Assembly (NCBI GenBank): GCA_963575745.1
Contig: CAUYUJ010020541.1
Coordinates: 1 to 64,000 of the forward strand
DNA: 64,000 nucleotides
Reading direction: 5' to 3'
Origin: Prorocentrum cordatum
Lineage: Eukaryota; Sar; Dinophyceae; Prorocentrales; Prorocentraceae
This document shows, piece after piece, positions 19,459 through 63,923 of the stretch (position 1 is the first letter of the stretch; every line of letters starts with the position of its first letter). The translations under genes and the position numbers were made by a program. The notes beneath the pieces are model-generated. The model saw only the letters and a program-made list of their open reading frames with translations, searched no databases and was not told the DNA's origin.

Positions 19459-20578
19459 TCGATTACAAATATGTGTGAACCTAGCTCGGGTAGCAGACCG
19501 AGTTCAGTCCTCTCGATGCATCAGACGAACGCTCCAAATGCTTCTGGATCGGAGTCTGTGCGTACCAGCTGTGTAGCTCTCCTGAATTCAATACAGAAAA
19601 TGGACAACATCTGTCAAGATGACTCGAAGAATACAAATAGTTTTGCGGACCTAGCCCGAGTAGCAAACCCAGTTCAGACCTCTAGATGCAACAGACGAAC
19701 CGGCCTGATAATTCCGAATCAGTTTCTGTGCGTATGAGCTCTCTAGCTCTCCTACAGCCCGAGTTACGTGCGAAAACGGGCAGCACCTCTCAAGATGACT
19801 CGAACGATACGAATAGTTTCGCGGACCTAGCTCGAGTAGTAGACCGAGTTCAGACCTCTGGATGCAACAGACGAACGCGCCTGATTATTCTGCATCGGTT
19901 TCTGTGCGCATCAGCTCTGTAGCTCCCCTAGAGCTCGAGTTAAGTACAGAAAACCGACAGTCTCTGTGGAGATGACTCGAGCAATATGAATAGCTTTGCG
20001 GACCTAGCTCGAGTAGCAGACCGATTTCAAACCTCTGCATGCGACAGGCGGACGCGCCTGATGTCTCCGAATCGGCTTCTGTAATTACCAGCCCTGAAGC
20101 CACCCTACAGCCTGAGGTAAGTACAGAAAACCGACAGCACCTCTCAAGATGACTCGAACAATACGAATAGTTCCGCGGACCTAGCTCGAGCAGCAGACCG
20201 ATTTCAAACCTCTAGATGCCACAAAAAAAAAAAAAAAAACGTCACCGCGTGTCAAGATGACCCGAAACGGCCAATCCCGCCTGTGTGCTTTTTCGCAATA
20301 ATATCTACCCGATCGACCTGATATTAAGATGGCGAGCAGGAATAAGATCGAATATCATGGGAAAAAATACTAGGAGCTCAAACGAATGGCTCAATTTCGA
20401 GAACAAAATTTTCAACCGACCAAAAGTCTGCAAAAGCTCCGTGGAGATTTTTCTTGCCAACTAGCTCTCCAGCGCCCCGGCACTACTCTTAAGCTTCCAG
20501 CAACTATAGCTAAGGGAAGCTCTACGAGTTATTACTCTTAAGCTTCCAGCAACTAGCTAAGGGAAGCTCTACGACTTA
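19020..20578 (-). mobile_element. HpB element with satellite array and poly-A tract
   Basis: The head has a one-base deletion after the right arm. The satellite array holds a long A run (about 19416-19456). The body ends with the HpB core and two partial tails (GGGAAGCTCTACGAGTTA, then GGGAAGCTCTACGACTTA). Confidence 0.65.
19402..19456. repeat. T-run / TATA / A-run microsatellite
   Basis: About eight T, TATAT, then about 41 A. It can fold on itself. A similar but larger block is at 42075-42225. Confidence 0.9.
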
Positions 20579-20608
20579 CTGGGAGCCGGCGGTAAACCGT
20601 CAACCAGG
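20579..20608 (-). mobile_element. HpC head, left half, target of nLTR-1
   Basis: CTGGGAGCCGGCGGTAAACCG followed by TCAACCAGG, then the T-rich 3' terminus of nLTR-1. The right side of this HpC resumes near 26502 without its right arm. Confidence 0.75.
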
Positions 20609-20869: not shown

Positions 20870-23800
20870 TCACTGCGAATGATCAAAGAAGGTCTGCACA
20901 ACCTGTGGGAGCACCTCGCATATGCGCTCCGCCGCCGATAGCTCCGTATCTGTAACAGTGGCGCTCGGTGGTAGACACCAAGCCGCAAGATACACATCCT
21001 TGAAAATGATGTCGGTCCGCGAGAAGATATACTTGTTTCGCAGACCAATCTGTATCCATGCACCACAGGCACTTCCGCGGCTACAAACTCCCCCATCAAA
21101 GCCGGCTTTGATAAGGCAAGGAATATAACACTGAGATTCAAAGTCGTTGAGGTAAACGAAATCGGCGTACACATGGCCCTGACGGGCCTGATGGGTCAGT
21201 AAGTCTGCTTTCTGGTTCCATTCCCGAAACGAATGAGAGAAGAAGTCACGGCCGGCCTCTGGAGGCCTCACCAAGTAAGTTTCCTGCATTTCGTCCAACT
21301 TATTAATCAGAGTATCCACCCTTTTCTGATATACCTGAGCTAATACTTTCCATTTCCCGCAGAGCCAGTTAATAACAAGCAGTGAGTCCCCTTGGATGTC
21401 CAGTGGTATCCCATCTGTATCGAGGTCCCACTGTGTACAACGCATATTATGCAACGCAATACGTTTGCTGAGGCGATCCCTATATGCTGGTGTATCCTCC
21501 CGATCCTGACCGATATGAACCCCTCCATCCTCATCCAAGTTCAAGAATACAGGCACCCCTGAGGACGCCAACCCTTTACACTTCTTTTGGAAGTACTTCA
21601 ACATAGTACTAGAACAAACATTAGCAGCGAAATCCATGAAATGCTCAAAACTTCCAGCAAAGAACTCCCACCAGGATAAACCGTAAAACGATTCCAATGA
21701 ATAATACCACGGACGGAGTCCGACGCTCTCCTGTCCCCCCCGATGCCTTTTCATAGAGCTGGCCTCCTTCCAGTTTCCCCAACATCTGAGAGCCTCACTT
21801 GAATCCGTCCTCATTCTATCCCACAGTCGGCCAAACGCCAGACATGAGAAACGAGAATCTCTCCAAGCTCTCATCGAGTTCGCCTCCAGCTCCCCCCGAT
21901 CTGTGATCAGCCTGTGTGCAAAGTCCTGGATGTCAATTGCCCACATCCAATGCACTCTGAGAAACTTCTGTACAATGCCCACGAAGTGAGCATCATGAAA
22001 TTTTTGTCTCGCACGTTCATACCTCCTCGTATTCCATTCCTGGTAACTTTCCCCCTCCCTCCGTATACAGCGAGACATTACAGACAGGCACTTGCCCTCA
22101 AAGATATGAAGGGCGCTCAATGAACTTGAATCGACCGTGCATCCTTCCGCCGCGTAGAGCACAATACTCTGAACTCTCTGAGCATACCTCTCATACTTAT
22201 CTTTCAACGGGATGGCCGTGGAGCGGAAGAAGGTCGCCTGCCCCCAGAAGGCCCTGCGAGCACAGTCAATACGAGCGTCCAAATCATGATGTTCATTCAC
22301 ATGTAGTTCAGAACAAATATAAGCCCCCAGCACCTCCATCTCCGTCGTCCTTCTAAATCGATACACTCCAGACGCCTCCGACCCCACCGAGAGAGCAAGA
22401 TCAGCAGTGTGAAGTATTTCCCCTTCCACATCTCGCGGCGGCTCGACCCCGAACACCATATACAATAGGCTGGATTCCTTCCATCTCATTCCATAATCAT
22501 GTAACTGTGTAGTTAGACCGTGTAACATGCGTGTGAGTTCCTCTCGACTCCGAGCCAATACATAACAGTTGTCAGCCCAAAGGAAATGATTAATAATCGA
22601 AACACAGCTAGTCGAGCCAGTCACATACTCAATACGATAACCTAGTCCTAGTACGTCCCATTCTCGAATCGTGGAGCCCCACATAGCAGCAACGATGAGA
22701 TTGAAGGCCAACGGTCCCTCGGGCCCTCCCGTCCGAATACATTTGCCCCACCTAACCTCCACCACCTCAATCCCATCATAATAGACAGTGCCTACACATT
22801 CGCACAAGGGGTCAAGTAGAGCATACTGTAGGTAAAGGGGTACATCCGCATGATCCAACCCGCGCCTGACATTGGCCACCGTGCAGTGATCGAACGCCTG
22901 AAGGACATCAGCGTTCGCCAAGTGTGCCGTTTCCCCTTTTCCCCATTGTGCAGCATGTTGACCTATGTGTTTGATGCTAGCCGTGATTTCGTGTGTACGA
23001 CGGTGTTCCTGGAAACCATACAACCCAATATGACGAAACACTCCTTTTCTTTCAATATGACCCTCAACCAAGAGAACAACACAGGAACTGAACCATCTCG
23101 AAACAGCATTCTGCATACACAGCAAACGTCCGTCTTTTAACTTAGTGATCCCTGGAGTTTTTGGCATAAAAGAGACGAGAATCTCACGCCACGACTGAGG
23201 ATACGGAATCGTGAGCTTGATGATTTTATCGAACAACTTCTGGATCGCTCTGAGAGCACACCACGGCAAGCTCCTTAGAATCTCGCACGGTATCCCGTCT
23301 GGCCCAGTAGCCCTCTGGGTCTTCAGCCGAGCTCGTGCTCTGAGAAGCAGCGCCATACTAATTCCCACAACTGATGTGGAACGTATCTCATGTACAGCCC
23401 TCATCCTGATCTCCTCCATCATACTGTTGGTGGAATTGCGTATCTCTTCGGACGACACCTTGCAACGAACGAACTTGTCGAGCTCCTCCTTCCACTCCTC
23501 ACGGTCCTCCGTCTCCCTCCCATCCACCACTAAATGTTTGATAGTATATCTGACCTTTCTTTTTGTTGGGGGACATCTGCACATAATCATATCACGTCGA
23601 TAACCTCTGCGTAGACGATTAGCCTCATTCTTTAACCTCCTCAACCTCTCCACTTCCTCCTTCGGACACATCTTAACCTCCTCCTCCGCTCTTGTGAGCT
23701 GCACCGGCCTGGACGGCTCTCTCTGTCTTCTCGCACCCGTGGTGGAGTAGTCCACCGTCGGTGACAAGTACGCCTCCAGCATAGTACTCTCCAGACCCTG

Positions 23801-24823
23801 TGGACAGGTCACAGACGGACACCTTGAAAAGGCAGCACCGCCTAGATACGAATCCACATGCTGTCGAGCCTGATGCTCATCAGCCCAAGTCGAACACTTG
23901 TATCCGACCAGAGACGGCCTAGACTTCTGACCAGGCTGGGGGTCAGGGCGACGAACAATCACGTTCCCAGGGTCAGTGAAACTCGCCGTGATGATTGCGC
24001 GATCGGATAATCTACTGAGCTGCTTCTTCCCACCCCTCTTGAAACACCACTTCACCTCCAGATCCGAGAACTCCCAACGGTGAGGGACCATTAGGTAATC
24101 CAGGACCCTCTTCGAAGTCAGAAACTTGTTCCCCCCCCACGACTCCCAGGTATGCCTCCTAGTACAGAAAGTGTTGGCGGCCTTCAGTCCATGCGATTCC
24201 ATGAACTCTAACAACAGCTCCTTCAGCCTCCTCCTCCGACTCCTCCTTTCAATCTGCTGTGTACCGTCTCCTCCTCTCTCCCACCTTCTGTCCGTACGAG
24301 TACCTTCCTTTCCAGTAGCCTCATACTCCTCCCCATTATACGTAAATCTGCATCCAGGCGGAATCTCCACGTTTGCATCTAGCAGAACACAAAAGCTGGC
24401 CTGAGGAAACTTAGTGCGGAGAACATTGCGAGCACGACCGATCTGCTCATATACCTCCGCAGCAATCTCAACACAATCCTCCACATGAGGGTCTGGCAAA
24501 TACGCTGACACAATAATGAGTGGTGACTTCTCTGACCCAAAGACACCGATAACGAACCTCGTGAAACAAGTGAAAAACATACGGACGGCAGCCGCCCAAG
24601 ATCTGTCGAAGATGAGAGCTGCCTTACTACACGAACTAGTTTTGATGCGCCACCCCAAGCGTTCAAATTCCCCGTGCACTAGGTATTGAGTTTCCTGACA
24701 TGCAAAGAGCCCACCACATGCCCTCATATGATGGAGAATCTCAGCACATTTGAAATGAGCCTCCCCTGCTTTGTTCAGGTTCCAGCTCGCTAAGCGCATG
24801 CCTCGGACGAGGCGCCGCAAACG
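20870..24823 (-). CDS. ORF2 of nLTR-1: APE-type endonuclease, reverse transcriptase, permuted RNase H
   Basis: The frame runs about 1317 codons from just after the ORF1 stop. Numbering from the TTG at 24820: endonuclease residues 10-280 with SWNLN (12-16), QE (E43), SAYLPD (Y107), LLDANVE (D148, N150), HTWES, LDYLMV and SDR (272-274, where SDH is usual). RT motif A NADVLQAFDHC (D638), motif B CIRTGGPEGPLAFN and motif C FLWADNCYV (D750; second Asp is Asn). A long connector with W-rich and basic helices follows. The end (about 1130-1310) contains D1145 (GDSLLV), H1196 and D1206 (HSFREWNQKAD), D1242 (FDGGVC) and E1293 (TDTELSAAE), an RNase H in permuted order. No internal stop is present. Known role of the family: target-primed reverse transcription. 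Confidence 0.85.
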   Translation of the reverse strand, partial: RLRRLVRGMRLASWNLNKAGEAHFKCAEILHHMRACGGLFACQETQYLVHGEFERLGWRIKTSSCSKAALIFDRSWAAAVRMFFTCFTRFVIGVFGSEKSPLIIVSAYLPDPHVEDCVEIAAEVYEQIGRARNVLRTKFPQASFCVLLDANVEIPPGCRFTYNGEEYEATGKEGTRTDRRWERGGDGTQQIERRSRRRRLKELLLEFMESHGLKAANTFCTRRHTWESWGGNKFLTSKRVLDYLMVPHRWEFSDLEVKWCFKRGGKKQLSRLSDRAIITASFTDPGNVIVRRPDPQPGQKSRPSLVGYKCSTWADEHQARQHVDSYLGGAAFSRCPSVTCPQGLESTMLEAYLSPTVDYSTTGARRQREPSRPVQLTRAEEEVKMCPKEEVERLRRLKNEANRLRRGYRRDMIMCRCPPTKRKVRYTIKHLVVDGRETEDREEWKEELDKFVRCKVSSEEIRNSTNSMMEEIRMRAVHEIRSTSVVGISMALLLRARARLKTQRATGPDGIPCEILRSLPWCALRAIQKLFDKIIKLTIPYPQSWREILVSFMPKTPGITKLKDGRLLCMQNAVSRWFSSCVVLLVEGHIERKGVFRHIGLYGFQEHRRTHEITASIKHIGQHAAQWGKGETAHLANADVLQAFDHCTVANVRRGLDHADVPLYLQYALLDPLCECVGTVYYDGIEVVEVRWGKCIRTGGPEGPLAFNLIVAAMWGSTIREWDVLGLGYRIEYVTGSTSCVSIINHFLWADNCYVLARSREELTRMLHGLTTQLHDYGMRWKESSLLYMVFGVEPPRDVEGEILHTADLALSVGSEASGVYRFRRTTEMEVLGAYICSELHVNEHHDLDARIDCARRAFWGQATFFRSTAIPLKDKYERYAQRVQSIVLYAAEGCTVDSSSLSALHIFEGKCLSVMSRCIRREGESYQEWNTRRYERARQKFHDAHFVGIVQKFLRVHWMWAIDIQDFAHRLITDRGELEANSMRAWRDSRFSCLAFGRLWDRMRTDSSEALRCWGNWKEASSMKRHRGGQESVGLRPWYYSLESFYGLSWWEFFAGSFEHFMDFAANVCSSTMLKYFQKKCKGLASSGVPVFLNLDEDGGVHIGQDREDTPAYRDRLSKRIALHNMRCTQWDLDTDGIPLDIQGDSLLVINWLCGKWKVLAQVYQKRVDTLINKLDEMQETYLVRPPEAGRDFFSHSFREWNQKADLLTHQARQGHVYADFVYLNDFESQCYIPCLIKAGFDGGVCSRGSACGAWIQIGLRNKYIFSRTDIIFKDVYLAAWCLPPSATVTDTELSAAERICEVLPQVVQTFFDHSQ

Positions 24824-24826
24824 TCA
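24824..24826 (-). promoter_or_regulatory. In-frame TGA between ORF1 and ORF2 (possible readthrough site)
   Basis: ORF1 ends ...NRRQ-TGA and the same frame continues CGT TTG CGG into the endonuclease. The TGA-C context is known to be leaky. The same order, TGA followed by a CG-starting Arg codon, is found in nLTR-2 at 35900-35902. Confidence 0.55.
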
Positions 24827-26221
24827 CTGCCTACGATTCACTTCCTGAAGTATATCATTCATGGGAACCTTCAGCGCCGGATAAAAAGAAACAATACGAG
24901 CCCATGCATCAGCATGAAGAACCCAAGCCCCTGTGGTATTCGTATACGTCGCAAAACAGACGGGTCGGAAATTCGTAACAGCTTGAGTCCAAATCTGACT
25001 TCTCGGTGGCCCCACCTCCCCACGGATCTCGATTTGAACATGAGCCGAGGTCATACTACGCCAAGTCCCACAGAAACGAGCAACCGCTTTCACATGATCA
25101 CGCTTCCAGGGTGCACACTCCACTAACGTACGAATCTTTCTGGGATCGATTGGCGTGTCCATATCATGAGTGAGAACATCGGCATCTGGATACGTATAAC
25201 CTGGGGGCGGGGCAATGCGGTCGGCGGGTTCCTTACAGACCATATCCATCCATTTCTTTATTCTCCAAAGAGTGTCCCGTGGTGTCCCTTCTTTGAAACC
25301 GACCTTCACACTGCCGTACATATATCTTCCTCCGTTTAAACGTTCAGTTTTATCTTTATCGTAAGCATTCCTTTCCTCCCCCTGAAGTGTCCCAATCATA
25401 TTAGATATTAACTGTGCCGCATCTGCCCAGGGTATCATTTGATTTCCCCGATTTACTTGATTCGACCAGTCCGTAACCCACCCTTTCAGCTCGAGATAAG
25501 TTGGTGCGAACTGGCTCGATCGCTCCTGTTGCACGCGAGGGAACGAACCTCCACCACCACCAGAGGAGCCACCAGGGCCCACACTAGTCGAAACCGAAGC
25601 TGCAGGAGATCCAGCCAAAATTTGCTTAACCTGTTTCTCCAAAATCTCTGTCCGTGCATCTGATTTGTCCATTCTCTCCGTATGCAACTTGAGTGTGTCA
25701 TCCACTCTTTTAATGTCCGTCTTCGTCGATTGAACAACATGGATCAGATCCTCATGGGCATCCTCCGTTTTCCAAACATGCTTCATCATCATCTGTTTGA
25801 AAGGATCCTTCTCCTTTTCTAACATCACTTTCCTCTCCTCCTCAATCTCTGTTCCACGTGCACGTTTGGATCGAGTCTCACCATCCCCAGTCATCGCGGC
25901 ATCCGCCGCTGCTGCAACATGAGTCATATCTTCAAGAATATTACCGTTCAATCCGTATTTATCTAACCAGCTCCTATCGTCCTCACGTTGACGTTTGTTT
26001 GATGCTGCCTCCAGTGCCTGCAGATCTTTCTGATCCCACGGCTGGTATTCCTCAAGGTAATCAAAGTTGACTCTCTCGTCCTGGTAGTCTTCTGTGGGTA
26101 TGTCCAAATTCCTTTGACGCCGAAACCACTCCTCAGTACTTTCACCCCAATGCTCGAGTCCTATCTCTCTCCTCAATGCCAGCTGAGCCTCAGGACTGTC
26201 GTACGACGTGATTGTCAACAA
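24824..26221 (-). CDS. ORF1 of nLTR-1: coiled-coil protein, probable RNA-binding chaperone
   Basis: An open frame of 465 codons. Acidic/aromatic N-terminus, basic patch SKRARG near 118, likely coiled coil about 150-202 (heptad-like KTDIKRVDDTLKLHTERM), Gly-rich linker 217-226, then a conserved domain from 240 (YLELKGWVTDW; WKRDHVKAVARFCGTWRSM) shared with nLTR-2. ORF1 proteins of other LINEs bind RNA; I infer that role, but I do not recognise a named fold. The frame opens after a TGA with TTG codons and its first in-frame ATG is residue 99, so the true start is uncertain. It ends with TGA in frame with ORF2. Confidence 0.7.
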   Translation of the reverse strand: MLTITSYDSPEAQLALRREIGLEHWGESTEEWFRRQRNLDIPTEDYQDERVNFDYLEEYQPWDQKDLQALEAASNKRQREDDRSWLDKYGLNGNILEDMTHVAAAADAAMTGDGETRSKRARGTEIEEERKVMLEKEKDPFKQMMMKHVWKTEDAHEDLIHVVQSTKTDIKRVDDTLKLHTERMDKSDARTEILEKQVKQILAGSPAASVSTSVGPGGSSGGGGGSFPRVQQERSSQFAPTYLELKGWVTDWSNQVNRGNQMIPWADAAQLISNMIGTLQGEERNAYDKDKTERLNGGRYMYGSVKVGFKEGTPRDTLWRIKKWMDMVCKEPADRIAPPPGYTYPDADVLTHDMDTPIDPRKIRTLVECAPWKRDHVKAVARFCGTWRSMTSAHVQIEIRGEVGPPRSQIWTQAVTNFRPVCFATYTNTTGAWVLHADAWARIVSFYPALKVPMNDILQEVNRRQ

Positions 26222-26257
26222 CGGTCAACAAGGACACGTCGAACGACGTGATAGTCA
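26193..26257. repeat. Short tandem duplication at the start of ORF1
   Basis: GGACTGTCGTACGACGTGAT (26193-26212) and GGACACGTCGAACGACGTGAT-like (26232-26252) are imperfect copies about 39-40 bp apart. They overlap the first codons of ORF1 and may have moved or destroyed its original start. Confidence 0.55.
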
Positions 26258-26501: not shown

Positions 26502-26820
26502 GGCGCGGCGCTGCCCGGTGCACATTAAGGGAGTTTTCTCCCAGATTTCTGTGCGAAAGAGCTCTCAAGCTCATCTGCAGCTCGAGTTAAGTGGAAAAAA
26601 TCACCATCAGTTCGAAAAAAAATCGGTCGCACACGAATAGTTTTACGGACCTAGCTCGGGTAGCAGACTGTGTTCAGAGCTCTAGATGCTCCAGCCGAAC
26701 GCCCCTGATGATTCTGGATCGGTTTCTGCGCGTACCAGCTCTGCAACTCTGCTACAGCTTCAGTTAAGCACAGAAGACCGACAGCGCCTGTAAAGAGAAC
26801 TTGAAGAATACGAATAGTTG
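26502..26820 (-). mobile_element. HpC remainder plus satellite units
   Basis: Right flank of nLTR-1: GCGCGGCGCTGCCCGGTGC continues as at 52673, then satellite units (CTCATCTGCAGCTCGAG, TTCAGAGCTCTAGATGC) up to the palindromic junction. Confidence 0.55.
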
Positions 26821-31694: not shown

Positions 31695-31726
31695 ATGGGA
31701 ACCGGCGGTAAACCGTCAACCAGGTT
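31695..31726 (-). mobile_element. HpD head, left half, target of nLTR-2
   Basis: GGGAACCGGCGGTAAACCG then TCAACCAGGTT (31716-31726). The right half TCAACAAGGTT-ACCGCCGGGG lies at 37490-37510, so nLTR-2 is flanked by an 11-bp target-site duplication with one mismatch. Confidence 0.8.
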
Positions 31727-31926: not shown

Positions 31927-34900
31927 TCACATCCTATCCTGTCCGAAATACGCATGTACAACCCGCGGCAAGATCAGAATCGTATGCTCAACGGCCGAGA
32001 TCTCGGCATCTGTCACTGGTGAAGTCGGATCAATCGAGAACGCCGCACTATACACCTCCGTCCAGATAATCTCATGGCTGAGTGGCTGCCTTGAGAGCCT
32101 CGATATCCGTCCAACATCTATCCAGCACCCAACTCCCACGCCGTCGCAAGAAACGCCACCATCGAATCCAGCTCTGACGGCACAAACGCGAAACACCTGA
32201 TCTAAGTGAGGGGCGTAAAGCCCAATCCTGTCCCGAATCACTGGTGGCCCGACACGGGCCGCATGAGTGAGCACATCTGCACGCGCGTTCCATTCCCCCG
32301 TATGTGTGGTCGACAATTTCCCTCCCATGAGAAGCAGGCCTAATTCCGAACCTCTGACACATGTTGTCCAATTGATTCATCATTCTGTTAATCCTATCTT
32401 GATAAGTACGATTAAGCACCCTCCAGACACCCTGAAGCCAAGGCACCACCAGAAGACTGTCCCCAGAGATGTACACAGGGATCCCAAATGACTCGAGGTC
32501 GTACACAACCTCCTGCATATTTTGTAACGCAATACGTTTGGCCAGCTTGTCGTTGAAAGCTGGAGTGCCCTCTTGAGCCCCATAAGTGCGTAGGTCGTTT
32601 TGTGTGATTGCATGTACCTCCTGCAGGGCCCCACCTGTTGTACCCTACCCTTTTCTCTTCTGGAAATAACTCAGCATCGTCCGTGTACACATGTGCTCGC
32701 AGAACTGAACATACGCAGCATCTGTCGGCACAAAGGACTCCCACCATTTGAGTCCGTAGAATTCACAGAAAGAAAATAGCCAGTATCTCTGGCCAATAGC
32801 TCTACCTGAGCTGACATGCCTCCTTTTGAGCTGTGAGGCCTCCTGGACGCGAAAAATACACCGCAGGCACTCAGAAGCACCCGTCCTGAGCCTGTCCCAC
32901 AGTGGGCCGCACGCAACCGTAGTCATGTGGTGATCTCTCCATGTGCGCTGCGTCGAAGATATTTCCTCATGAGAATCAGCACGCAATATAGAAATTAAAT
33001 TTGCAGCATCCTTAGCGGGGTTCCACGCCATACGGAGAAATCGCTGCACCAAACTCGCAAATCCGTAAGATCGAAATTGCTCTCCGGCTTCATGGTACCG
33101 TCGCCGGCTCCAGTCCGCCATCGTCTCCTCCTCTCTCCTCGGCCGTCGAAACATACGGCACAAACACCAGCCCTCGAAGGCATTGAGCATATGTAATGAG
33201 GAAGTATCAGCAGTACATGTCTCTAGACAATACAACGTCAGAATCTGCACCTTATCCTGATAACGACAAAAATTATCACGAACAGCAACCGCTCTGTTAC
33301 GAAAGAAACCCGACTGTCCGATGAAACAAGCACGAGCCTCTTTGATGCGATATTCTACACCAGGATGCGCAGGCACTAGGTAGGTGGAGAAAACCTCGTG
33401 ACCCAATACTTTCATTCTGCACACACGTCGAAGCCTAAAGCCCTGATATCCAGAGCACGCAGGTATACACAAATCCTCACTGGCAAGTATATGTCCGTCT
33501 CCGTCCACTCTCGCATTCTCCCCACATGTCATGTACAACAGGCTGCAATCCTTCCATCTCATCCCCCAGTCGTGTAATGGTAGGGTTAGATCGTGAATCA
33601 TCTGAGCCAGCACGGTTGAGGAGGCAGACACAAGGTAGCAATTGTCCGCCCACACGAAGTGGTTCACGACTGGCCGTCGCTCATACTCTCCACAGACGCC
33701 CTCCAGCACATACCCCACTCCTCGACTGTCCCAGTCCCGAAATATAGGTCCCCACATGGCACATATGATAAGGTTAAAGAGAAGAGGCCCCTCGGGGCCG
33801 CCCGTCCGTATACAGACGCCCCAATTGATGTTGTGAATGGCCATACCCTCGACAACTAACGACCCCGTAGTGCAAACCAGCGGTGCAAGCAAGGCATACT
33901 GGAGATAGGCAGGAATATTGGCATGGCACATAGCCCTCTTGGCGTTTTGAAGGCTGCAATGGTCGAACGCTTGTTTGATATCGGCGTTAGCGATATGGAC
34001 CGTCCGATCCGTTCCCCAGATGTCCCCATGTTGAGCAAGAGCCTTGAGTGCCCCCACACTTTCCATAGTCTTACGTCCCTCCTGGAAGCCGTAGATGCCC
34101 AGAGGTCCCATGAGCCCAGCCCGAGAGACAAATTGTTCGACCAAGATCACCACACAAGCAGAGTACCAACGGCTGAGGCTGTTTTGCAGACAGAGGTACC
34201 GTGCATCTGTCAATGATGTCAAGCTCGGCAGCTTGGGCATGAAGGCAATCAAAATCTGCCTCCAGTCCTGCGGATACTGCCGTGTCAAACGAAATACCTC
34301 ATCAAACATCCGAGCTACGCTGCGCAACGTCGCCCACGGCAATGCCTCGAGTAGTTCACAAGGCAGCCTGTCGGGACCTGTGGCGCGCATGGACTTGAGA
34401 CGTGTCCGTGCCTGGCATGCCACCGCCATTGTCAGTCCCTCGGTGCAGTACCCATCACATACGTTCCGTCGTGCATCCTCCCTCAACTCCTCCAACATCT
34501 CCATATCCCGTCCTCTGACCTCCTCCGAAGTATATCTCTCTCTGGTGTACGCTCTGATCTCCTCCACCCACTCCTCCCTGTCCTCAGATATCCGTCCCTG
34601 CACAATGAAGTGCTTGATACCGTGACGTACTTTGCGCCTGGAAGCAGGCGAGGACCACGCGGCCAACGCCGCACGATACTCCCTCCGAAGTCCGTTGGCA
34701 CGTCTGCGAAAGCTGGGTACGTCCACCGACGCAGGCAAAGGCTTCCGTCGCAGAATCTCCTGGCAGGCCGTAAGCCCCGCAGGCCTAACTGGCGGTAATC
34801 CCCGTCCCATGGTGGCAGTCGTGAATTTGATTTCCTCCTGCTCTGTACAAGCCCGAATAGTGGTCGACACAAGGTCCCCAGGAGAACAAGTAGTGTTGGC

Positions 34901-35899: not shown

Positions 35900-35902
35900 T
35901 CA
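35900..35902 (-). promoter_or_regulatory. In-frame TGA between ORF1 and ORF2 of nLTR-2
   Basis: ORF1 ends DRRM-TGA and the frame goes on CGA CGA CGA CGC into FKGIRLGSWNLN. TGA-C context and frame are conserved with nLTR-1. No ATG lies between this stop and the first endonuclease motif. Confidence 0.6.
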
Positions 35903-61338: not shown

Positions 61339-61401
61339 CTGGCGCCGGCGGTGAACCGTCAGCCTGGTTTTTTGGGTTTTCGGACCGATGCTCCAGCTGG
61401 G

Positions 61402-63574
61402 TCAACTGGCGGCCAGAATCTGCTGCGCCAAATGCACAACAGCGCTAGTAAGCGCCTCAGCAGCACTAAGTTCGGCGTCGGTTATCGTAGCACCCTCTAG
61501 GCACCACGCGGCTTCGCACACATCCCTCCAAACGAGAGGCATATTAGAGGACACGGAGTAGGGGGAGGAGGAGGGGAGAGGAGAGCACGAGACACTCTTA
61601 TTACAATCATATCTGTGATTGATGAAACCCACTTGAAGCCAAAAGCCGCACCCCGTCCCTTTGCTGCAAACTCCCCCATCGTATCCACCACGACAGGCGA
61701 TAGGTTGTAGAAAGTCCTCAAAGCTAAACATGTACTCATATTGGTTGTAGAAGCAGTGGCCCTCGCGGGCCAAATGTGTAAGTTCATCAGCTCGTGTGTT
61801 ATCTTCCCTGAATTCATGCCTATATAAGTCTTTCCCCAATCCAGAGCTTCGAATGCCCAGATCCCCCGCAGCTCGATCTAGAACGTTAATACATCGGTCC
61901 ACACGTCTCTGGTATTGTTTGTTGTCGCATCGCCATCGTCCCGTCAACCAGTTATTCACAAGTAAACTATCCCCTTTGATTTCTACCCCGAATCCTGGAC
62001 TTACAATGTCCCACACCGTCTGCCTCTCGTTGATAATCGCCAGCCTCTTAGCAAGTTTTTGTGCATCTTTCTCACTCGGTACACGCTCAGTATCACCCAC
62101 CATCTCGGGAGGTGTATAGTACGCCGCTGTGCCCTTCCAGTTCTGAACAAAATACAGGAATACCTTTGGTTTATCGTACATGCACAAAAGATTCTGCCAC
62201 ATCTCCAGGAAAGAACGATAGCTCGTCTCGACACTCGACCACCAGGAGCTGCCATATGTAAGAATGTATGGATACTGCCAGCTACGCTGGCCCACTCTTT
62301 CTGGGCCAGCTCTCAACCTCTTGATCGTGGATGCCTGAGTACGGTTCCCGTGTAGTCGGCAACATTCTGCCATAATGTCCCTGCGCGTAGTCCACTCAAC
62401 ATTGTACATGAGCAATCCCCTTCTGCTGTCCACGAAAGCCCTGTTATCAGGACTGCAGTGATCAATATCATGACCTGGCAGGGAGAGTGTGGGCAGTAGA
62501 GCCGCCGACCCACTCCCTGAATCAATATTCTCAGAAGCCAAAGAATCACCACCAAACCCTTGTCGTAGTCCCTGCAGTCGTCGTCTTTTCAAGGTCTGCC
62601 TGTTGAAGCTGGCGTCCTGGGTCGCAATGTGCCTGGCGAGCTCCTGTGAAACATCCTCCAGCCTATCACTCAATGCAATACTCTCAGCAACAACTTGTGA
62701 GATGGCTCCCGCGAAAGATTGCGAGGGTGTATCAGCAAAGCGTACTCTCTTCTGGGAAGGCCCAGGATCAGCACCAAACGTGGCGACGTGTGCCTGGGGT
62801 GTTCCCTCGCATTCGGGGCTTCCCCAGGACTTGCGTCCTGACGCCTCCTGCAAAATTTGGCGACGTTGCCTGAGGTGTTCCCTCGCACTCGGGGCTTCCT
62901 CAGGACTTGCGCTCTGACGCCGTTGAACATGTCGACGGTGACAATCTGACAAGATATACTCCTTGATACTTCTCATCATCGTCCAGCTCTTCCAAGCAAT
63001 CATCTGTACAGCTGATGGGAAATTGGCCTCAGCGAAATGCTGTCGCACCTTGTGGAGCATCTCAGGGCGCCAGACACCCCATGTTAGCGAAGACGGCTTG
63101 CGACGGCACCACATACGCAGCAGACACATGCCCTCAAAAGCATGTATGGTTCGCACCGCCTCAGCATCAAGCGTGAACATCTCTCCCGCATATAGCAGAC
63201 GCGATTGGACCTGAGCTTGATAACGACGATATTTGTGTTTCAGCGGTACCGATCTGCACCCAAAATATGATATCTGAGCGAAAAAGGATCCTCTGGCGCA
63301 TTTAAGTCGATGTGCTAGGTCCTCGTGTCCCTCGAGAAAGCTTTTGCAGACAACGCAGCCCAGAATGGAAAGCGACTCCACCGGTGTGAAGGCAACTCGT
63401 TGGTCTCCGACTTGGGCCAGAATCGGCGTAGGGTCCTGGGTCCCGCATACGAGTATCTGCAAGGATGATGACTTCCAACTCATTCCCCAGTCTGCTAAAG
63501 CAACGGTGAAAACATCAACGATCTTCTGGATTTCCTTAGCATTCCTCCCCACAAGGTACAGATTATCAGCCCAA
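61402..63574 (-). pseudogene. C-terminal part of nLTR-3 ORF2: RT motif C to permuted RNase H
   Basis: The element-derived frame starts at SWADNLYLV (motif C) and is open to TGA. It continues 5' into about 40 codons of HpA sequence by chance, so the apparent ORF (to 63693) is a fusion. After the RT come WGMSWKSSSL, a linker with RVRFAD and S/G-rich parts, then WTTRRDIMAECCR, WQYPYILTYGSSWW and FVQNWKG, aligned with the nLTR-1 connector. The end holds GDSLLVNNWLTG, HEFREDNTRADELTH, YDGGVCSKGTGCGFW and TDAELSAAEAL: D, H, D, D, E of RNase H in permuted order. RT motifs A and B and the endonuclease are gone, so it cannot act alone. Confidence 0.8.
62782..62921. repeat. Duplicated hairpin unit inside nLTR-3, 77-nt period
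   Basis: GGCGACGT..GCCTGGGG...CCCCAGGACTTGCG (62782-62845) and GGCGACGTTGCCTGAGG...CCTCAGGACTTGCG (62859-62921). Stems CCTGGGG/CCCCAGG and CCTGAGG/CCTCAGG differ by a compensated pair. The 77-nt period puts the copies in different frames of the ORF. Confidence 0.7.
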
Positions 63575-63923
63575 GAGCTCCTTGCACCCGTAAGAAAGCT
63601 CAGGGTCGAAGCGGAGAGCTTCTTGGAGCTTTCCTCGAAAAATGTCAGATTGAGATTGTCGGAGTGAAGATCAAGTCGGTTCCCGGAAGTCAACTAATAC
63701 TAAAACTGGCTCTAGAGAGCTAACCTGAGCAGGGAACAAAGTTTATATGCCAATGCTCGGCGTAAAAATCTGCTTTCTCAAAATGAATGGTCAAATATCT
63801 TTCAAATATTCGCAAAACCACCCGAGAGTTGTCACTTTGTCCTTTCTGGTCGGGTCGACCAACTAGCTCCCCCCCGCGCCGGAATTCCTCTAGCTCATCG
63901 ATGCCGAAGAGCTCTACGAGGTA

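Follow-up and report, generated by a model that had tools for sequence, protein, structure and literature searches.

A predicted circularly permuted type 1 RNase H at the C-terminus of ORF2 in a LINE clade of Prorocentrum cordatum

Few folds have been studied as thoroughly as RNase H, which is also a routine component of retroelements and retroviruses; in long interspersed nuclear elements (LINEs) it is thought to clear the template RNA once the first strand is made. The canonical chain runs beta1-beta2-beta3-alphaA, then beta4-alphaB-alphaD-beta5-alphaE. Archaeal-like RNase H domains are encoded by plant L1 and oomycete Utopia LINEs, lying upstream of the reverse transcriptase (RT) in Utopia, and their five residues are described as standing in the order D-E-D-H/R-D, with R reported at the place of H in archaeal-like RNase H (PMC4640811, PMC5348765). 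Here we analysed a 64,000-nucleotide stretch of the genome of the dinoflagellate Prorocentrum cordatum (contig CAUYUJ010020541.1, positions 1 to 64,000; hereafter the window), in which the second open reading frame (ORF2) of three diverged LINEs, nLTR-1, nLTR-2 and nLTR-3, ends with RNase H motifs arranged D70-H124-D134-D10-E48 (E. coli numbering). Sequence comparison and structure modelling point, with a probability of roughly 92%, to a circularly permuted type 1, archaeal-like RNase H at the end of ORF2 in this LINE clade, predicted to form a single domain and likely to degrade the RNA of RNA–DNA hybrids during retrotransposition.

Motif order in the window elements, public proteins and genome copies

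The end of nLTR-1 ORF2 carries, in order, GDSLLVINW (D1146), HSFREWNQKAD (H1197, D1207), FDGGVCSRGSACGAW (D1243) and TDTELSAAE (E1294), or in short GDSLL, H.FRE.N..AD, FDGGV and TDTELSAAE, and the frame terminates 23 residues beyond the E48-like residue. An arginine three residues past H is invariant in permuted domains (H.[FY]RE.N..AD). A preliminary description of this DNA had claimed the permuted order and an H-to-D spacing of 10, both of which our reading of the ORF2 end bore out, but its residue numbers were one too low. The relevant features are as follows.

20870..24823, minus strand: nLTR-1 ORF2, a 1317-aa open frame with an endonuclease-like N-terminus (motif only), RT and permuted RNase H at the C-terminus
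21158..21412, minus strand: C-half of the nLTR-1 RNase H, in first position; beta4-alphaB-alphaD-beta5-alphaE, from motifs and the AlphaFold2 model
21386-21388, 21233-21235 and 21203-21205, minus strand: D70-like, H124-like and D134-like codons of the nLTR-1 C-half
21128..21157, minus strand: part of the nLTR-1 linker, which runs from alphaE to beta1 and bridges the former C- and N-termini; rotations here restore canonical order
20873..21127, minus strand: N-half of the nLTR-1 RNase H, in last position; beta1-beta2-beta3-alphaA, from motifs and the AlphaFold2 model
21095-21097 and 20942-20944, minus strand: D10-like and E48-like codons of the nLTR-1 N-half
32300..32644, minus strand: nLTR-2 permuted RNase H, first piece with upstream flank (D70 block to H)
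31930..32295, minus strand: nLTR-2 permuted RNase H, second piece, in the other frame (D134, D10 and E48 blocks)
61402-63693, minus strand: nLTR-3 open frame, with the whole permuted order within one frame
61405..62172, minus strand: nLTR-3 permuted RNase H with upstream flank (core 61405-61998)

The same order had been proposed for nLTR-2 and nLTR-3 and was present in both; nLTR-3 holds it in a single frame, but in nLTR-2 a frameshift directly past H lies inside the domain, and the order spans two reading frames. When four domain sequences were searched against the window with tblastn, the three places in nLTR-1, -2 and -3 were recovered at E ≤ 1.6e-26, and everything else at E ≥ 0.046.

We then looked for the same C-terminus among 5.8 billion proteins. 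The nLTR-1 C-terminus as query returned two proteins (P0004, P0005) from 995 candidates, a six-row alignment (A2) returned 33 from 5459, and the nLTR-1 RT region returned three from 2311, all three with a permuted domain. A motif set of 18 proteins was made up of the two one-frame window elements, P0004, P0005 and 14 of the 15 A2 proteins read (P0032, a piece ending past the D70 block, was omitted). Relatives with the permuted order were thus found beyond the window: 15/18 proteins, window elements included, had the permuted order with every motif block, three were without a block (P0018 begins past D70, P0011 is without the E48 motif, P0020 without D10 and E48), and none had the canonical order. 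P0039 has the permuted order too. All five catalytic residues (D, H, D, D, E) were retained in 13 of the 15 complete proteins, the losses being N for D134 in P0007 and Y for D70 in P0016.

Three of the 33 A2 proteins are named Prorocentrum cordatum. Another 15 (P0019, P0022–P0024, P0026–P0031, P0033, P0035–P0038) are EukProt fragments carrying the label of the green alga Pyramimonas sp. AAC, with up to 89% identity to the nLTR-1 domain, reflecting either contamination or horizontal transfer. One scan for relatives in IMG/VR gave four pattern matches, none of which was confirmed by tblastn.

Searches of the organism's own 4.13-Gb assembly (21,875 contigs) were scored for the best 150 of 5495 candidates with the nLTR-1 domain and the best 148 of 5548 with the nLTR-3 domain; most of the scored matches in both sets followed the permuted order along the whole query. 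The nLTR-3 matches, whole or partial, included a sister group at about 75–78% identity. Among the 150 nLTR-1 matches, at least 36 copies, window copy included, scored identically to the window domain, although some of these may be duplicated contig stretches, and the 1317-aa open frame was listed for 30.

The frameshift within the nLTR-2 domain might suggest that the order is artefactual: a misassembly, a local rearrangement, reading across a frameshift or motif matches arising by chance. We rejected this explanation as scarcely credible, because the same order recurs in the other window elements, in public proteins of other source and in most scored genome matches, which also agrees with the earlier view that it is no local rearrangement; the gain obtained by rotating the domain (below) exceeded that of 60 shuffles.

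Profile comparison and predicted structure of the rotated domain

A canonical set was assembled from 20 regions of the same genome (L009–L028) and L001; after removal of L018 (partial) and near-duplicates, 15 were aligned, and the canonical profile comprised 14 RVT_3 domains, L022 being dropped as an outlier. The permuted profile (15 sequences) was rotated in four-column steps and compared with it. In native order it scored 58.1 over 57 columns, covering the C-half only, while a cut between the D134 and D10 motifs gave 72.1–72.3 over 115–122 columns (E about 2.3e-11), with D10, E48, D70, H and D134 all in register; cuts at other positions gave 37.3 to 63.4. With the N-half columns shuffled 60 times the mean was 58.5 and the maximum 63.3, and with the N-half reversed the score was 58.1. 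The C-half of nLTR-1 aligned with canonical profile columns 80–139, and the N-half profile alone scored 24.3 (hhalign probability only 21%), compared with a mean of 11.3 and a maximum of 19.9 for 60 column shuffles. At the level of sequence, then, the order is permuted, the catalytic residues are conserved and each half matches canonical RNase H, in line with the original motif assignment, and type 1 RNase H homology over the whole domain, with five residues in register, appeared only after rotation between the D134 and D10 motifs.

In a search of the PDB, the best match of the swapped profile was 3u3g (metagenomic RNase H1; E = 1.1e-4), spanning the artificial join, versus E = 0.017 for the native profile, the two profiles differing in rows (12 and 18); in the HMMER alignment of the swapped profile to 3u3g the glutamate motif was three residues off register. 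With Pfam RVT_3, swapped nLTR-3 matched across the join at E = 0.02 and swapped nLTR-1 gave no match; matches were seen in 5/18 native rows (best E 0.011) and 5/12 swapped rows (best E 0.0021); bit scores, where listed, were at most 16.0 against a gathering cut-off of 21.6.

AlphaFold2 modelled the 182-residue nLTR-1 core (ORF2 residues 1136–1317) with a pLDDT of 94.0 and a pTM of 0.90 (pLDDT 92.8–94.0 across five models). The C-half elements were E4-10, H13-19, H28-48, E60-62 and H69-79, and those of the N-half E98-112, E115-128, E138-149 and H155-181. All elements of the RNase H fold were thus predicted in rotated order, those of each half contiguous, as the preliminary description had expected: beta4-alphaB-alphaD-beta5-alphaE, an ordered linker, then beta1-beta2-beta3-alphaA, with predicted new termini between alphaA and beta4. 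In structural alignments the first half of the core paired with the second half of RNase HI, and chain-order searches matched the C-half only.

Three results are weaker. Swapping the halves of a single sequence beat all 20 shuffles in only 5/16 sequences; the best match to a doubled single sequence spanned the join in 7/16; and many unrelated folds scored as high as RNase H in whole-fold searches, in which chain-order aligners cannot follow a permutation.

The linker between alphaE and beta1, about 18 residues in the model, together with the existence of dimeric RTs, would allow a domain-swapped dimer, the N-half from one ORF2 chain combining with the C-half from a second. The high-confidence folding of the single chain by AlphaFold2 argues against such a dimer, which we regard as very unlikely.

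Alternatively, ORF2 may contain, or may once have contained, a pair of RNase H domains: one whose N-half has degenerated and, behind it, a trailing N-half. A low-confidence helix (model residues 42–57) does sit directly before beta4, at the place of alphaA, and the RNase H matches of a longer model start at chain residue 24–26 and model residue 58–61, so that a small number of upstream residues do pair with the N-half. Yet the core folds without the upstream helix, and the 85 upstream residues scored just 6.8 against the canonical N-half (shuffles: mean 8.8, with 57/60 reaching 6.8). Pfam likewise showed no RNase H in the ORF2 frames, nor any RNase H family in the window ORFs at E ≤ 1. The search for a separate canonical RNase H elsewhere in ORF2, which had been put forward as a check, therefore found none by Pfam, and an upstream relic of a duplicated first N-half was rejected for want of a profile signal, the helix notwithstanding; we consider two domains highly improbable.

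Selection, origin and surrounding LINE features

For selection, we compared 20 nLTR-1 copies without stops in the domain, taken from the 150 scored, together with the window copy. D, H, D, D and E were retained in 21/21. Pooled pN/pS over 210 pairs was 0.208 (C-half 0.227, N-half 0.273), values biased low because the copies were found by protein similarity and chosen without stops. The domain might instead keep the RNase H fold without nuclease function, as a connection-like structural domain positioning the hybrid. P0007 and P0016, each without one catalytic residue, would fit this, and a precedent exists in a connection domain with an RNase H-like fold but without a catalytic residue, as described in PMC3985635. 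The retention of all five residues in the remaining 13 complete proteins and in every nLTR-1 copy compared makes a purely structural role very unlikely.

When 11 permuted domains, re-ordered, were placed in a tree with 14 canonical ones, the permuted domains all fell on one side of a long branch with 100/100 support, which is consistent with a single origin.

Beyond the RNase H, RVT_1 was matched at residues 601–782 of nLTR-1 ORF2 (E = 9.4e-6; 25.9 bits, below the 29.6-bit cut-off) and in nLTR-2 (E = 2.3e-6, also below the curated bit cut-off), while the nLTR-3 frame had no Pfam family at E ≤ 1. The only other Pfam hit in nLTR-1 was one weak, unrelated family. Pfam gave no APE-type endonuclease match in the window ORFs; SWNLN and SDH-like motifs, spotted by eye, are candidates for such an endonuclease. 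With regard to long terminal repeats, the repeats that surround nLTR-1 resemble the dispersed repeats of the region, but some flank the element in direct orientation (e.g. 19633-20170 and 26633-26817). Upstream of ORF2 lies one further feature:

24824..26224, minus strand: ORF1-like open frame of nLTR-1 (466 aa), sharing its frame with ORF2, from which a TGA (24824-24826) separates it

A single TGA followed by C parts same-frame ORF1 and ORF2 at 24824-24826 and 35900-35902 (minus strand), and the junction was also examined in L049–L058. Nine nLTR-1 junctions were readable (the window and 8/10 fetched copies; L053 and L057 missed the junction), with TGA in seven and TGG in two. At the position of the window's ATG, 24 bases past the stop, six of the nine have ATA, so ORF2 is often without that start codon. 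These sequences suggest that ORF2 is expressed via UGA readthrough.

RT motif C is usually YADD or FADD. In the permuted clade (nLTR-1, -2, -3; P0004, P0005, P0039) it reads WADN, the second Asp being Asn, and in same-genome LINEs with RNase H before the RT (L001, L009, L016) WSDN or FSDN; that of L009 shares the W.DN form with the permuted clade.

The 24-mer CCTGGTTGACGGTTTACCGCCGGC (up to three mismatches) occurs at 51 places in the window, compared with 0 in 100 shuffles (e.g. 20585-20608, 31701-31724 and 61344-61367). One copy lies 35–262 bases past each of the three ORF2 ends, which may be chance given the many copies, or may mark an insertion target.

Possible mechanism and comparison with known RNase H systems

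The permutation may go back to a single event in the clade's ancestor; an RNase H could have been duplicated and its outer halves then lost. Since the catalytic residues are conserved, the domain would do the same job as other LINE RNases H: a two-metal active site would remove template RNA after first-strand synthesis and so aid second-strand synthesis. We think it probable that this is a natural, catalytically competent circular permutation of RNase H, made once and fixed in a recently active LINE clade, in a genome that also holds LINEs with unpermuted RNase H, and the first described in any retroelement. A literature search for permuted RNase H, covering openly licensed papers with most subscription papers missing, gave no natural circular permutant, and we rate the enzyme family as known and the chain topology as new.

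If the enzyme is active, the RNase H fold tolerates opening inside its core, between alphaA and beta4, and can still function in a very abundant element. The permuted order also explains why the domain escapes profile annotation, which may lead to an undercount of RNase H in protist elements. With permuted and unpermuted RNase H side by side, this genome offers natural material for studying how permutations originate and are maintained.

Canonical RVT_3 domains also occur in the same genome (at least 80 matches among 150 scored), preceding the RT in L001, L009 and L016 and following it in L021 (relative L017). L021 has its canonical RNase H at residues 1230–1352 of 1360, and L009 at 595–732 of 1332, both of the same RVT_3 family; the RT of L009 is weakly similar to that of the permuted clade (about 22% identity, E 5e-5 at best).

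The permuted domain is closest to the archaeal-like, RVT_3 (PF13456) type 1 RNases H, such as LC11-RNase H1 (3u3g) and Sulfolobus tokodaii RNase HI (3aly, 2ehg), with which it shares GDS...H..RE.N..AD-type and DGG...E motifs. Its C-half superposes on archaeal-like structures at 2.6–3.5 Å with 20–30% identity, and since the invariant H..R pair is reminiscent of this type of enzyme, either of the two residues may take the place of H124. Unlike in those enzymes, beta4-to-alphaE comes first here and beta1-to-alphaA last. With the plant L1 and oomycete Utopia LINEs, the P. cordatum elements share a LINE-encoded archaeal-like RNase H, but here it is C-terminal and permuted.
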